Origin: Verrucomicrobiota bacterium
GTDB taxonomy: Bacteria; Verrucomicrobiota; Verrucomicrobiia; Chthoniobacterales; UBA10450
Assembly (NCBI GenBank): GCA_003220075.1
Contig: QHRJ01000041.1
Span: 1-38,481 of the forward strand
Length of the DNA: 38,481 nt
Reading direction: 5' to 3'
A program made the position numbers and the translations under genes. Positions 7,236-13,681 of the stretch are shown here, piece after piece; the stretch's first letter is position 1; each line of letters opens with the position of its first letter. Under the pieces are notes generated by a model, which saw only the letters and a list, made by a program, of their open reading frames with translations, was not told the origin of the DNA and did no database searches.

Positions 7236-7369
7236 GTTAGCCGCACAGGCGAATCGAACGCCATCCCCGATTCGGTGTCGAATCCCAAAGGCGTGACTCC
7301 TGCTCATTGCATTGCCAAGCTGCTCATGTAACTTTTCTAGCGCGGCAAGATTTCCGCGCACCGAACCTA

Positions 7370-9400
7370 ATGGCGCAACCTGACCGCAACTCCTCGCGCG
7401 ACAACAAACGCAACAACGAGCCGAATTTCAACTGGCGCGGCATCGTTCTGATTGCCATTGCCTTTGGCCTCATCGGCATGGCTCTACTCGTTCGCAACGG
7501 CGGTTACCAGAATGTAGAGGACGTCCCCTACAACCGCTTTATCGAGCTGCTCGATAACAAGCAGATCATTAGCGACAAAAATCTCCCAGTCACCCTGCTC
7601 GTTCAGGAAGGCCAGCCCACCCGAGCCCTCATCGGTTATTACCGCAAACAAACCGCCGGCGCGGAACAGGCAGTGAAGTTCCGCACCACGGTCGATCTGA
7701 ATTTCAGCCCCGACCTCGAGAAGCGGCTTAGTGCTGCCGGCATTCAACCGGCCATCCGCACCGAATCGAACCTGTTCGCCCAGACCGTTCTCAGTTTTCT
7801 TCCGATCGCACTCTTTCTCCTCGTTCTCTATTTCCTGTTCCGCCAGCAAATCCGTATGGCCGGTAAAGGCGCCCTCAACTTCGGCAAATCCAAAGCGCGC
7901 ATGCTGGCCCGCGACAAAAACAAGATCACTTTCCGCGACGTCGCCGGAGTTGAGGAAGCCAAGGATGAAGTGCAGGAGCTGGTCGAGTTTTTGCGTGATC
8001 CGAAGAAGTTTCAGAAACTCGGGGGGCGCATTCCAAAAGGCGTGCTTTTGGTCGGGCCACCCGGCACCGGCAAAACCTTGTTAGCCCGCGCCATCGCCGG
8101 CGAGGCCGATGTCCCATTCTTTTCCATCAGCGGTTCCGATTTCGTCGAGATGTTTGTCGGCGTCGGCGCCAGTCGCGTCCGCGATATGTTTGAGCAGGGA
8201 AAGAAATCCGCGCCCTGCATCATTTTCATCGACGAAATTGACGCAGTCGGTCGCCATCGCGGCCATGGCGTCGGGGGCGGCCACGACGAGCGCGAACAAA
8301 CCCTCAATGCCTTGCTCGTCGAGATGGACGGATTCGATACTCAGGAAGGCGTTATTATCATCGCCGCTACTAACCGGCCCGATGTTCTCGATCCCGCTCT
8401 GCTTCGCCCCGGCCGTTTCGATCGCCAGATAACCGTTAATTTGCCCGATGTAAAAGGCCGCGAGGAAATTTTGCGGGTCCATTCCAAGAAAGTGAAGTTG
8501 GCCGAAGGGGTCGATCTCGCGGTGGTGGCGCGCGGCACGCCCGGTTATTCCGGGGCGGAATTGGCCAACGTCATCAATGAGGCTGCCTTGCTGGCAGCGC
8601 GGCGCAACTTGAAGGGCATCACGTTGGCTGAGCTGGAAGAAGCGCGCGACAAAGTCCGCTGGGGGAAGGAACGCCGCAGCCTGGCTTTAAGCGAGAAAGA
8701 AAAAACCAACACCGCTTACCACGAAGCCGGTCACGCGCTTCTTCTTGAATTACTCGAACACACCGAGCCGCTCCACAAAGTTACGATTATCCCGCGCGGG
8801 CCATCGTTGGGCAGCACCATGTGGTTGCCCGAAGAAGACAAATACACTAACCGCAAAGCCGAACTACTGGCCAGTCTCGCCGTCAGCATGGGCGGCCGCG
8901 TGGCCGAGGAGCTTGCTTTCGGCGATGTCACCAATGGCGCCCGCGGCGATATCAAAATGGCTACCGCCACCGCGCGCCGGATGGTGTGCGAATGGGGCAT
9001 GAGCGAAAAATTGGGAATGGTCGAGTACGGCGACCACGAAGATTACGTTTTCCTCGGGCGCGACATCTCTCGCGCACGCGACTACAGCGAAGCCACCGCC
9101 GAGGAAATCGATCGCGAAGTGCGCACGCTCCTCGATGAAGCGTACCAGAGGGCGAAGCAAATTCTCACCGCCAATCGTGACAAGCTCGACGTCATCGCCA
9201 AAGCGTTGCTCGAGTTCGAAACTCTCGACGGTTCGCAAATCAAAGAGATCGTCAAGTATGGCCGCATGCTCAACCCGCCACCGGGAATCGCCCCGCGCGG
9301 CGGCGAAAAAATGGAGCCGGAGAAACCGCCCAAACAGGTCGTCGTCGCCCCGGACGTCACTCCTCCGCTTCCCGGCGCCCTCGGCGGCGCCCCGGCGTAA
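7370..9400 (+). CDS. ftsH: ATP-dependent zinc metalloprotease FtsH
   Basis: AAA Walker A GPPGTGKT, Walker [17 protein letters not shown] region [26 protein letters not shown] zinc site. Likely start MAQPDRNSS at 7370. Confidence 0.97.
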
Positions 9401-9633
9401 AACGCTCCGCTGTCCTCGGCCTTCGATGTTGGTTGTTCGACGTTCCGTCTTCCTCTCATGCTCGATTTTTGAGCGAAATTTTACCTCTTCTGTAGCGGCG
9501 GTCCATGACTGCGGAACCCCAATCACCATTCCCCGACCACTATTCATCCTCTGCCCGTCCCCTGCTTCCTGGCGCGTTCCAGAAATAGACGAAAAACTGT
9601 TCGCGATTAAATACGAACTTTCGTATATATCTC

Positions 9634-9640
9634 GTTAGGC
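9634..9640 (+). other. Isolated attC/attI-like core site GTTAGGC at the left boundary of the cassette array
   Basis: atctcGTTAGGC shares 12 nt with the right end of the attC at 10046-10052. No complementary left half is visible upstream. Confidence 0.5.
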
Positions 9641-9700
9641 CTTGTCAATCTCGATTTCCTCAAATCGAATCTAACCGAAACTGAGGAAGAGCTTCGGCTG

Positions 9701-9934
9701 TTGTGCGCCCGGCTTAAGACGGGCGAGAACGTTCTGTTTGATGATTTTCACCTCGCGATGGCGCACATTTACCACCACCTGAACTCAGCTTGGAATGGCC
9801 GCTACACCACAGACCAGCGATGGCGCGACTGCTCCGATCAAGATTTTTCCGACTGGCAGAAGTTTCCTAAAGACCTACCGCTTATCGGCGACGATGACTA
9901 CTATGATTTGCCCGAATACAACGCCGAGACCTAA
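9701..9934 (+). CDS. Hypothetical protein, cassette 1 gene (start uncertain)
   Basis: 77 aa ORF from TTG. The frame stays open back to 9611 and reads ...LVNLDFLKSNLTETEEELRLLCARLKTGENVLFDDFHLAMAHIYHHLNSAWNGR, suggesting the true N-terminus abuts the GTTAGGC site. No ATG is present. Confidence 0.55.
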   Translation: MCARLKTGENVLFDDFHLAMAHIYHHLNSAWNGRYTTDQRWRDCSDQDFSDWQKFPKDLPLIGDDDYYDLPEYNAET

Positions 9935-10052
9935 CCAGTCGCTGCAGCCGACGCCTGGCCGGCTTGTTTCCTTCCTTTATCATGATTAAAATACTTCTAG
10001 AGTTCGCCAGTCGCGCTCTCGCTAGCCGCGGCTGAGCTTGATCTCGTTAGGC
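9929..10052 (+). other. Integron attC recombination site (attC1)
   Basis: R'' ACCTAAC (9929-9935) fits RYYYAAC and R' GTTAGGC (10046-10052) fits GTTRRRY. L'' GCTGCAGCCG pairs with L' CGGCTGAGC (reverse complement GCTCAGCCG), leaving one extrahelical base, as in attC sites. Confidence 0.85.
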
Positions 10053-10055
10053 CGC

Positions 10056-10607
10056 ATGCAGGGAGTTGAAGAAATACAGGTTCGTCCGTTTTCAAGTCGT
10101 GAAGAATACGAGCTGATGCTGGATTACTTTTATAAGGCGGATGATCTGTTTTTACGCGGGATGGGCGTAGACCGCTTGAAACTTCCTGAAAGAGACAAGT
10201 GGCTTGATGCTCTTTTAGCCGACCATGAGAAACCAGACAGGGAAAGAGACCGGTTTTACCTGGTTTGGATACTTCGAGGACGGCGTGTTGGACACTCAAG
10301 TATCAATAAGATCGTCATTGGCGACGAGAGCTTTATACATTTGCATTTGTGGAATTCACAATTGAGAGGAGCAGGTCTGGGGACCGAATTTGTGCGCCGA
10401 TCGGCCAACTTTTACTTCGAACGATTCAATCTGCAAAAACTCGTTTGCGAACCGTGGGCAGAGAATCCTGCTCCCAATCGAGTGCTAGAGAGACTCGGAT
10501 TCGCATTCGTTAGGCGCTATAGGACGACTCCCGGTGTCATTGCGTACGAACAAGATGTGAATCGCTATGAGTTGAGAAGACCAAACCTATCGCTCCAGCC
10601 CGCCTGA
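10056..10607 (+). CDS. GNAT family N-acetyltransferase, cassette 2 gene
   Basis: GNAT-like features (LWNSQLRGAGLGTEFVRRSANFYFERFNLQKLVCEPWAENPAPNRVLERLGFAFVRRY). ATG lies 4 bp after the attC1 GTTAGGC. Confidence 0.85.
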   Translation: MQGVEEIQVRPFSSREEYELMLDYFYKADDLFLRGMGVDRLKLPERDKWLDALLADHEKPDRERDRFYLVWILRGRRVGHSSINKIVIGDESFIHLHLWNSQLRGAGLGTEFVRRSANFYFERFNLQKLVCEPWAENPAPNRVLERLGFAFVRRYRTTPGVIAYEQDVNRYELRRPNLSLQPA

Positions 10608-10715
10608 GGCGGGCTCTACCTCGCCATGTGTTCGATTGTCGATCTTAGCTAGCGTGATTCAACCTGCTGCTACTTGCGCATGCCGGAGTCGCAGCTGAGC
10701 TTGTTCTCGTTAGCC
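10580..10715 (+). other. Degenerate integron attC site (attC2)
   Basis: R''-like accaaac; L'' gctccagc vs L' gctgagc (reverse complement GCTCAGC, one extra base); right end gcagctgagcttgttctcGTTAGCC is homologous to attC1 cggctgagcttgatctcGTTAGGC. The left end (aacctatcgctccagcccgcc) also aligns with attC1 (aaccagtcgctgcagccgacgcc). Confidence 0.65.
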
Positions 10716-10730
10716 TCAACCCGCCACGCA

Positions 10731-11300
10731 ATGAAAACCATTATTGCAATGTCATTCCTCGCCGTCTTATGCACAATGGCCCACGCACAAGACCCGGTGA
10801 AAACGAAACCCGCCGAGATATGGTTAAAGGTAGATCCAGGACAGTACATCATCATTTGCTGGAATAGTGGTCACGCCAAGACCACGCCGGTCCACCCTTT
10901 TACTGTCGAAGAGGTCGGCGCACGCGATAATCGACCACCGAAAGAAGATCTGGTCCTAAAGCTCTTTGACTTCCGGTTTGAGCTCGATGGCACTTTGCAT
11001 CAGGGAACGCAAGTTACCCGAATCGAAACCCCCTGGCCCCAGCATGCACGAGGTGGACATCTACCGTCTTCTCCAAGGCAGAACCGTGGCCGATCTAAAC
11101 GCCTGGCGGAAGCAGCAGGGCCATGGGGCTGTACCGGCGCAAGCCCTGGGCGGTGCACTCGACAGTCATGACATCCACAGGGTGGTATGGTTGCGAAAGA
11201 ATTCCCCCCCGGGGCGGTACGTGCTGCACTGTGAGATGCCTGTCGAAACAGTGAGTCACCCATGCCGATGTCGGAATGGTGCGTGAGATCGAGATCAAAT
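10731..11300 (+). pseudogene. Secreted hypothetical protein, cassette 3 gene, with two apparent frameshifts
   Basis: MKTIIAMSFLAVLCTMAHAQ signal peptide. The reading continues as HEVDIYRLLQGRTVADLNAWRK... in a second frame after about 11035, and as THADVGMVREIEIK* in another frame ending at about 11300. Confidence 0.6.
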
Positions 11301-11374
11301 GAGATTTGGTTATCAGTTATCAGGAAGAAGACTTGTCAAGGGATCGACTTACTCTGATGTCTGACCTCTGACCT

Positions 11375-13522
11375 CTAGCGCAGCAATTTCTCGAGCGAGG
11401 CGTCCGGTTCGGCGCCGAGCTCGGTTGCTTTGGTGTAGTGCCGCTTGGCCAGTTCTTTCGACGGCGGAGAGGCGGTAGCGTAGATAACAGCAAGATTAAA
11501 ATGAGCATCGGCGTAGTCCGGTTTGACCGCGATGGCTTCGAGCATCTCCTTTTCCGCCGCTTCCTGCCAGCCTTTCTGGCTGGCGGTAATCCCTAGGTAA
11601 TTGTGGGCGGCAGCGCTCTTAGGATTAATCGCTAGCGACTTGGTTAATTCGTTGAGGGCGTCGTCGAACTTACTTTGGCGATAGTAAACGATGCCCAACG
11701 TAGTATGCGCAAACTCATCCTTCGGCGCGATAGCTACTGCCTTCTTTAAGGTAAGTTCAGCTGCTTTCAGCTTGCCCGTCCTGAAGTAAACGACCCCGAG
11801 GTTCGAAAGGGAATAAAGATTGTTCGGGTTCTTGGTTAGTAGTTCCTGATATTGGCGCTCGGCCGCGTGATACTTCCCGTGATCGAAGTTTTCCTTCGCC
11901 TGTTTCGCGACATCCATTAGATCGCTCGGCACATTCGGTTTGAATCCGTTTTGCAAATTAGCTTCCGGCTGGGCCGTGTTATCCGTTGTCTCGACAATCG
12001 GTTCGCCCGGCTGATTGCCGGTTGCAGGCTTGGCGTAAGTAAAACTCGCCTTAACCGTGTTTGGACTTTCGTCCGAAATCGAAATGACCGGCTGGCGAAG
12101 TAGGGCCAGCTCTTCGTCGGTTAATTTCGTCACTGGTTGCGCCAGGAGCGCGATCTGTTCGTTCAAGGTATCCGATTTGATCTTTAGTTTATCGAACTCC
12201 GCCACCATCAATTTCTTGGCCTGCTCGCGACGCGCTTCTTCCTGCCGCTCACGCACCACAATATTACGCAAGATCTGGTTCTCGCGGGTCAGCTTCGCGG
12301 TCTCATCGGCGTTCGCACCGGTTAACTTCGCTTTCTCGAGTTGACTGGAAGTGTCCTCCAGTTGGCTGCGCAGTGAAGCCACCGCGACCTCAAAGTCTTT
12401 GTTCTGTTTTTCGCTTGCCGCCAGTTGCGCGCGCAGATCCTCCAACTGCTTCCTCGCGTCAGCTAGTTCCTGTGCTTTTTTCGGCTTATCCTCGCTGACC
12501 TCGCGCACCGTCTGTTCGGCGGTCGCGAGTTTCTCCTTTAGTTCGCTATTCTCGGCCAACAGAACCGCGACGCGATGCTCTGAATCTTTCAATCCGGTCA
12601 GCTGGCCCAGAGCGTCGTCGCGCTCTTTTGAGATCTTTGCAATCTGCGAGTTGGCGTCAGTCAATCTCGCGTTCTGCGAATCCCGTTCCTTTTCCGCCGT
12701 GGCGCGACCTTCCTCAGCGGCGGTGAGGGCCTGCTTCAACTGCGCAATCTGTCCTTTCAACGCTGCCTGCGCTTTCATGTCGGCGTTGCCGGTCTCCTGA
12801 ATTTTCTTCAACGAAGCCTGCGCTTCTGCCAGCTGGCCACGGACGCCTTTCTCTGCATTCTTCGTGTGTTCCAGCTCCTGTTGCGCCTGTTCCAGCTTCG
12901 AATTCGTTTCCTTCAATTTCGAATTCAGCTTCTCCTTTTCTTCCTCCACTTCGCTGACTTTGGAACGCGATTGTTGTAGTTCCGCTTCCAATTGATCGAC
13001 CTTATCCCGCAACTTTCGCGTCGCGTTCTTAATCGCGGCGTCGCTTGCAGGTGGCGCCAGCGCCGGGGCCGCGGCTTCTCGTTCCTTCGGAGGCGGCGAA
13101 GTTTGACCCGCCGGCTGCACAATTATCGACGGCTTCGATTTACCAATTTCGACCGTCGGCTCGGTGGATCGTTGTGGTGAAGGCTGAGTCTCAGCCGGCG
13201 GCGCATTGGTCGCGGCCAGATCCTGCTGCGTTCCAGATTTGCTCTGCACCCGCAGAATGCTTTCGGAAATCTTACGGCTGCGGTATTCGACGATGGCCGG
13301 CTGCCACTCCGAGTGCGTTTTCTTTAGCTCCTCGAGCAGGCTGCCGGCTAAGCGGTATTTTGCCAGGGCCCGCGTATATTGGTTGTCGCGCTCAAGTTTT
13401 TCGCCCTGCTGCGCGGTCATGTAGGCCTTGAGAAACGTCTCGCTCGGGTCGTCACTCTGCGATTGCGCGCTGGCGACGACGAACAACAGTCCTGCGAGTA
13501 GGAGCGAACCAAGTCGGGTCAT
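11375..13522 (-). CDS. Secreted coiled-coil / TPR repeat protein
   Basis: Signal peptide MTRLGSLLLAGLLFVVASAQ, long Glu/Lys/Gln coiled coil, C-terminal TPRs (NNLYSLSNLGVVYFRTGKLKAAELTLKKAVAIAPKD). The ORF extends to 13585. Confidence 0.88.
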   Translation of the reverse strand: MTRLGSLLLAGLLFVVASAQSQSDDPSETFLKAYMTAQQGEKLERDNQYTRALAKYRLAGSLLEELKKTHSEWQPAIVEYRSRKISESILRVQSKSGTQQDLAATNAPPAETQPSPQRSTEPTVEIGKSKPSIIVQPAGQTSPPPKEREAAAPALAPPASDAAIKNATRKLRDKVDQLEAELQQSRSKVSEVEEEKEKLNSKLKETNSKLEQAQQELEHTKNAEKGVRGQLAEAQASLKKIQETGNADMKAQAALKGQIAQLKQALTAAEEGRATAEKERDSQNARLTDANSQIAKISKERDDALGQLTGLKDSEHRVAVLLAENSELKEKLATAEQTVREVSEDKPKKAQELADARKQLEDLRAQLAASEKQNKDFEVAVASLRSQLEDTSSQLEKAKLTGANADETAKLTRENQILRNIVVRERQEEARREQAKKLMVAEFDKLKIKSDTLNEQIALLAQPVTKLTDEELALLRQPVISISDESPNTVKASFTYAKPATGNQPGEPIVETTDNTAQPEANLQNGFKPNVPSDLMDVAKQAKENFDHGKYHAAERQYQELLTKNPNNLYSLSNLGVVYFRTGKLKAAELTLKKAVAIAPKDEFAHTTLGIVYYRQSKFDDALNELTKSLAINPKSAAAHNYLGITASQKGWQEAAEKEMLEAIAVKPDYADAHFNLAVIYATASPPSKELAKRHYTKATELGAEPDASLEKLLR

Positions 13523-13681
13523 GCGGGGACGAGCGCCTAGAATAACCCGGCGCGCGCCGCTTGCAATGCTAAGGAGAAGCACCACGGCGTTGCTGTCAGC
13601 GAAGAGTGTGCCAAGCTCTGACGGTTTGGGGGGTTTGCCTTTGCAATCGGAAATCTAAAACCTAGAATCTGAGATTCACCC

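Follow-up and report, generated by a model that had tools for sequence, protein, structure and literature searches.

An orphan attI site behind ftsH heads a small integron cassette array in a Verrucomicrobiota genome and recurs across its family

Sedentary chromosomal integrons are characterized by a species-typical attC family, such as the VCRs of Vibrio. Integrons have been described with one attI adjoining intI, and a single attI per integron has been stated as such (PMC3607928). In the reverse-oriented chromosomal integrons of Treponema, intI is transcribed toward attI (PMC3607928), and in archaeal integrons attI lies directly downstream of intI (PMC9668308). Clusters of attC sites without an integron integrase are known as CALINs (Cury et al., as given in PMC8618304), for which off-target insertion, intI loss, and rearrangement are the listed origins (PMC8618304). 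CALINs outnumber complete integrons, and action in trans on their cassettes is considered possible (PMC9668308). IntegronFinder does not seek attI outside class 1 (PMC9024848). Finally, class 1 and 2 integrons include delta-attI-type cassettes, which end in part of an attI instead of an attC (PMC12901181).

The stretch of DNA analyzed here (the window, 38,481 nt) is contig C321 of a 2.79 Mb MAG (G000) with 370 contigs and 85% completeness. Like a CALIN, it has two attC-bounded cassettes and no intI on the contig, and the original prediction of an integrase-less, CALIN-like island fits the formal definition of two or more attCs with no integrase nearby. However, that description missed a conserved attI at 9582–9641, which heads the array and sets it apart from a CALIN; the origins listed in PMC8618304 include no population of retained attI sites that still receive cassettes. 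As in delta-attI-type cassettes, attI sequence is found away from its usual place, yet here the attI is whole, stands at the head of the array, and is bordered by host DNA on the left.

On the plus strand, the host gene upstream of the platform is ftsH (7307–9400; NCBIfam TIGR01241 FtsH_fam, 831 bits, E 6e-250), with orthologues in 30 of 35 relatives. It is followed by the orphan attI, termed attI57 (9582–9641, +, 60 bp), an imperfect palindrome (ATAGACGAAA..GTTCG..CGAAC..TTTCGTATA) and then the core GTTAGGC at 9634–9640, the cassette entry point. Cassette 1 (9635–10046, +) spans the attI core to the attC1 core, both GTTAGGC, and has an ORF of 77 aa with a TTG start (9701–9934, +, in the open frame 9611–9934) that has no Pfam or NCBIfam match and hence no known family. 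Next come attC1 (9929–10052, +, bottom strand folding), cassette 2 (10047–10709, +) with a GNAT-family acetyltransferase ORF (10056–10607, 183 aa; Pfam Acetyltransf_3, E 3e-11), and attC2 (10580–10715, +). ATGs lie 4 and 16 bp past the cores, just as predicted. The last gene (10731–11302, +, its end judged by eye) encodes a secreted protein in a broken reading frame (10731–11171 and 10960–11286), with no attC behind it, as the covariance model R1 gives no match past 10715. A TPR-repeat gene (11375–13585, minus strand; Pfam TPR matches) forms the right-hand host flank. An Rfam scan of the window returned tRNAs only and no attC family.

The first ~95 nt of the last gene resemble the platform's last gene in two relatives, G004 and G009 (blastn 79–81% over 95–112 nt), and the remainder is unlike. 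This shared part encodes a signal peptide, after which unrelated, frame-broken sequence follows, and the gene is either a chimera or the product of assembly errors in C-runs. A "cupin" label for the relatives' last platform gene was dropped, the fragment tried having no Pfam match.

The attC sites were evaluated with R1, built from 32 attCs of the window genome and its relatives, with the window sites left out; its alignment has compensatory changes in 9 of 24 pairs. Both attCs of the original prediction were recovered, attC1 at exactly its predicted coordinates (119.7 bits, E 5.3e-35) and attC2 at 39.1 bits (E 3e-10), while the next match in the window had an E of 0.19. With cores ACCTAAC ... 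GTTAGGC, attC1 folds on the bottom strand by pairing R' with R'' and L' with L'', leaving in the L'' arm the extrahelical base that had been proposed from L-box pairing. Its folding energy by itself is not significant (z −1.2), so its identity rests on the covariance model and not on stability. It is the top-scoring attC of the genome and of a 124-nt type also found at C19:8250–8373, C193:1437–1560, and C36:1730–1852. The second site had been considered a degenerate relative; it is an attC by R1, but it carries an extra GCCCGCC-TGA-GGCGGGC hairpin, has a related site at C173:1536–1661, and, judging from its sequence, is its own hairpin-bearing subtype rather than degenerate. R and L boxes, a bottom-strand stem, an extrahelical base, and a variable middle were all observed in the window.

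Across the window genome, R1 gave 35 matches at E ≤ 0.01, which puts its attC sites at about 35. When this genome was searched with the 3' part of the attCs from the window, 26 matches were obtained, compared to one for the reversed pattern, and they were clustered on C19 and other contigs; real attC arrays are therefore present in this genome. Similar to sedentary chromosomal integrons, the attCs within one genome are alike, with the 124-nt type near-identical on several contigs. Unlike in those integrons, the cassettes form small arrays scattered among many contigs and several attI platforms, in addition to a larger array on C19. This 12.1 kb contig (L014) is nearly all cassette array, with more than 12 attC matches of 48–193 nt, and probably represents a fragment of a larger chromosomal integron.

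A profile of attI57 (R2) was made from 25 sites, with the window copy left out. It matched the window at 9582–9641 (67.8 bits, E 2.5e-20), the sole independent match in 38 kb, and there is no attC upstream of the first core. The site is 95% identical over 60 bp to one on contig C99 of the same genome, which lies directly behind the C-terminal remnant of a broken intI and ahead of a cassette with an attC. Across 52 stand-alone loci, conservation is limited to about −53 to +7 of the core (GTTAGRY), and the flanks are near 0 bits. Among 40 loci used in neither training set, the 4 kb downstream contained 56 attCs, all 56 of them co-oriented, and one attC lay upstream. Cassettes begin at a GTTRRRY core, the site stands at the head of the array, and a cognate intI adjoins it in some genomes, with 11 of 107 strong sites within 1.5 kb of one. 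From sequence, then, the 60-bp site behaves as an attI in its position, polarity, and cassette turnover, and it would be expected to bind IntI and recombine.

These observations bear on whether an IntI encoded elsewhere could have inserted the cassettes off target into a non-attI site (attG), the likeness over 60 bp being incidental. Such insertion is a proposed CALIN origin (PMC8618304), and the use of attG by IntI1 is cited in PMC12901181. Against this, the profile match reaches exactly to the core, the same site is found behind intI genes, and it is conserved at the ftsH locus in five genomes; we regard off-target insertion as strongly disfavoured, with very little probability left to it.

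In six genomes (G061, G070, G101, G001, G011, and G012), attI57 lies 26–48 bp behind the 3' end of a largely complete intI, in the same orientation. A tree of IntI took in four of these six, and they form one clade (support 100/100) with the IntI of G023, which has a shortened attI57-like site behind its gene. This arrangement, with attI directly behind the intI 3' end and in the same direction, is that of the Treponema and archaeal integrons; it differs from the window and from 96 of the 107 strong sites, which have no intI within 1.5 kb. The idea that the clade's intI is itself a cassette with attI57 as its attC was dropped, since an upstream core was found only at G001:C84 and was absent in the five others. 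By inspection, other IntI of the family are paired with attI of different types, located on the divergent side as is usual. Examples are G015:C14, G015:C18, G020:C2, G013:C76, and G006:C76 (L154, L153, L158, L159, and L140), where the sites seem to share one layout of paired arms of differing sequence, then ..TCTCGTTAG. The attI arms appear to change along with the IntI lineage.

The original prediction had seen no integron integrase, and C321 indeed has no match to TIGR02249 or PF13495. No intI adjoins the window attI, as it would in a complete integron, and no intI remnant was detected by HMM in the 2 kb upstream. The absence does not extend to the whole genome, as a search of the rest for intI and attC returned, besides the attCs counted above, one broken intI on C99 (L021, 2608–3299), with its N- and C-terminal pieces kept and its middle replaced by a GIY-YIG-like ORF. 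Two further candidates, on C176 and C347, were rejected as partial, sub-threshold matches, that on C176 resembling XerD. Over 3.4 kb, C99 shares 99.4% identity with G021:C9, from a MAG of another genus, which may reflect transfer or cross-contamination of one of the two MAGs. This possible contamination leaves the window unaffected, because its ftsH synteny is common within the genus.

At least one attI57 (E ≤ 1e-4) was observed in 63 of 83 family genomes, and the 107 strong sites are spread over 53 of the 83. The window genome has three. Two or more were found in 31 genomes, 15 of which are without any intI; seven sites but no intI were found in G064 (97% complete, 50 contigs), and the five of G015 (98% complete) all lie away from its intI genes. 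Some sites lie in the middle of 300–400 kb contigs, so MAG gaps do not explain the absent intI there. HMM searches of the 2 kb upstream found no intI remnant at 53 of 61 loci. Outside the family attI57 is rare (4 further genomes in a sample of the order). Exact attI-pattern matches in named genomes were all in Verrucomicrobia/Spartobacteria MAGs, in agreement with the predicted Verrucomicrobiota background, and viral contigs had none. A co-oriented long ORF precedes 42 of 51 orphan sites, a count from crude stop-to-stop ORFs that we estimate at about 32 of 41 once orthologous loci are collapsed. Two contigs each have a pair of sites 0.5–2.7 kb apart (G063:C40:715–773 and 1172–1230; G075:C107:3853 and 6571), and a strongly palindromic copy at G009:C284:28304–28360 matches on the other strand too; these are possibly tandem platforms.

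A longer mobile unit (more than about 60 bp) carrying attI57 was rejected, given that copies within a genome have no common flanks. A related proposal is that the 60-bp palindrome is a REP- or MITE-like repeat that spread by itself and was adopted by integron integrases as a docking site. The imperfect palindrome, the likeness of copies in one genome over about 60 bp only, and the lack of an intI remnant at most copies all suit such a repeat, but the site ends in an integron core, immediately follows intI in one clade of IntI, and is accompanied by an intI remnant at the ftsH locus. We consider this origin improbable; it concerns the spread of the sites, not their function, and is compatible with the explanation preferred below.

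The history of the window's own platform can be followed among relatives. The order ftsH, attI57, cassettes, and TPR gene was found in G000, G004, G009, and G002, and G010 has ftsH and attI57 at a contig end (C125), making the position common to five genomes of the genus. In G003 and on another G010 contig (C98), the TPR gene directly follows ftsH and there is no attI57. First cassettes are unlike between G000, G004, G009, and G002, with flanks 85–99% alike, while G002 and G010 share theirs. Cassette content is thus variable at a fixed platform rather than in strict synteny, and the prediction of a cassette array stands. On G009:C35 (L106), no attC is left to separate the first cassette from the last gene; about 1118–1135 nt past the end of ftsH, R'' (ACCTAAC) is joined straight to sequence that elsewhere follows R', as if the attC had been deleted between its outer boxes.

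The spacer between ftsH and attI is homologous (76–84%) in G000, G009, G002, and G010 and contains no intI, which implies that intI was lost before these four split. Any later change of first cassette must then have come from an integrase acting in trans, or from another allele by homologous exchange. The G004 spacer differs from those of the other genus genomes, and its first-cassette difference may have come from homologous exchange. In G093, from another genus, attI57 behind ftsH is accompanied by a divergent remnant of an intI N-terminus, indicating that the ftsH locus once was, or adjoined, a complete integron.

The same comparisons speak to the possibility that the locus is a relic, an old integron that lost intI and left attI and cassettes as fossils, with no insertion afterwards. 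The G093 remnant would be expected in that case, as would the broken last gene of the window, the attC lost in G009, and the lack of an intact intI of the matching clade among those found in the window MAG. It does not account for species that differ in first cassette at this attI although their homologous spacers, free of intI, date the loss earlier, nor for a 60-bp attI conserved while all flanking DNA diverged, and attC1 still scores highest in its genome. A relic is unlikely in our judgment.

Cassettes were also observed to differ in location. The window's GNAT cassette has a 93% identical copy in another species, G007, where it lies downstream of another orphan attI57 that is flanked upstream by something other than ftsH. 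At the DNA level the two are homologous (90.7%) over 10031–10804, starting from the cassette boundary, and in G007, too, the GNAT gene is followed by a homologue of attC2. Close copies of this one-gene cassette are patchily present in 7 of 83 family genomes.

The explanation we favor, at a probability of roughly three in four, is an orphan integron platform, in which the attI would have lost its neighbouring intI and been served by an IntI acting in trans from another locus. The ftsH locus would formerly have had an intI, which was lost as attI57 was kept, and the stand-alone attI at 9582–9641 would have received at least two cassettes, each ending in an attC. Cassettes would have kept entering at the GTTAG core by attI × attC recombination, with an integrase acting in trans from another place in the present or a former genome, most likely one of the IntI clade with attI57 directly behind its genes. 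Their expression probably relies on transcription of the co-oriented upstream gene, here ftsH, and read-through from a host gene is a plausible promoter source. Several points weigh against this orphan platform. The window MAG (85% complete) has only a broken intI, on a possibly contaminating contig, and several genomes with many attI57 sites show no intI at all that could act in trans. Cassette differences between species could stem in part from homologous recombination through conserved flanks, and intI loss is documented for few orphan sites, most of which show no intI remnant.

Searches of the open-access literature turned up nothing on stand-alone or multiple attI sites, and no lineage described as having many of them; most of those here stand alone, often with more than one in a genome. 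For this Spartobacteria-like family of soil Verrucomicrobiota as a whole, we put at even odds that its integron is a distributed system, in which numerous orphan attI sites, each with exchangeable cassettes and most of them downstream of a co-oriented host gene, would be served in trans by one or a few, sometimes transient, integrases. The attI57 profile makes stand-alone attI testable in other genomes. If the orphan-platform explanation is true, some CALINs may be functional platforms whose attI went unnoticed, and capture platforms could multiply independently of the integrase gene and place cassettes behind different host genes.
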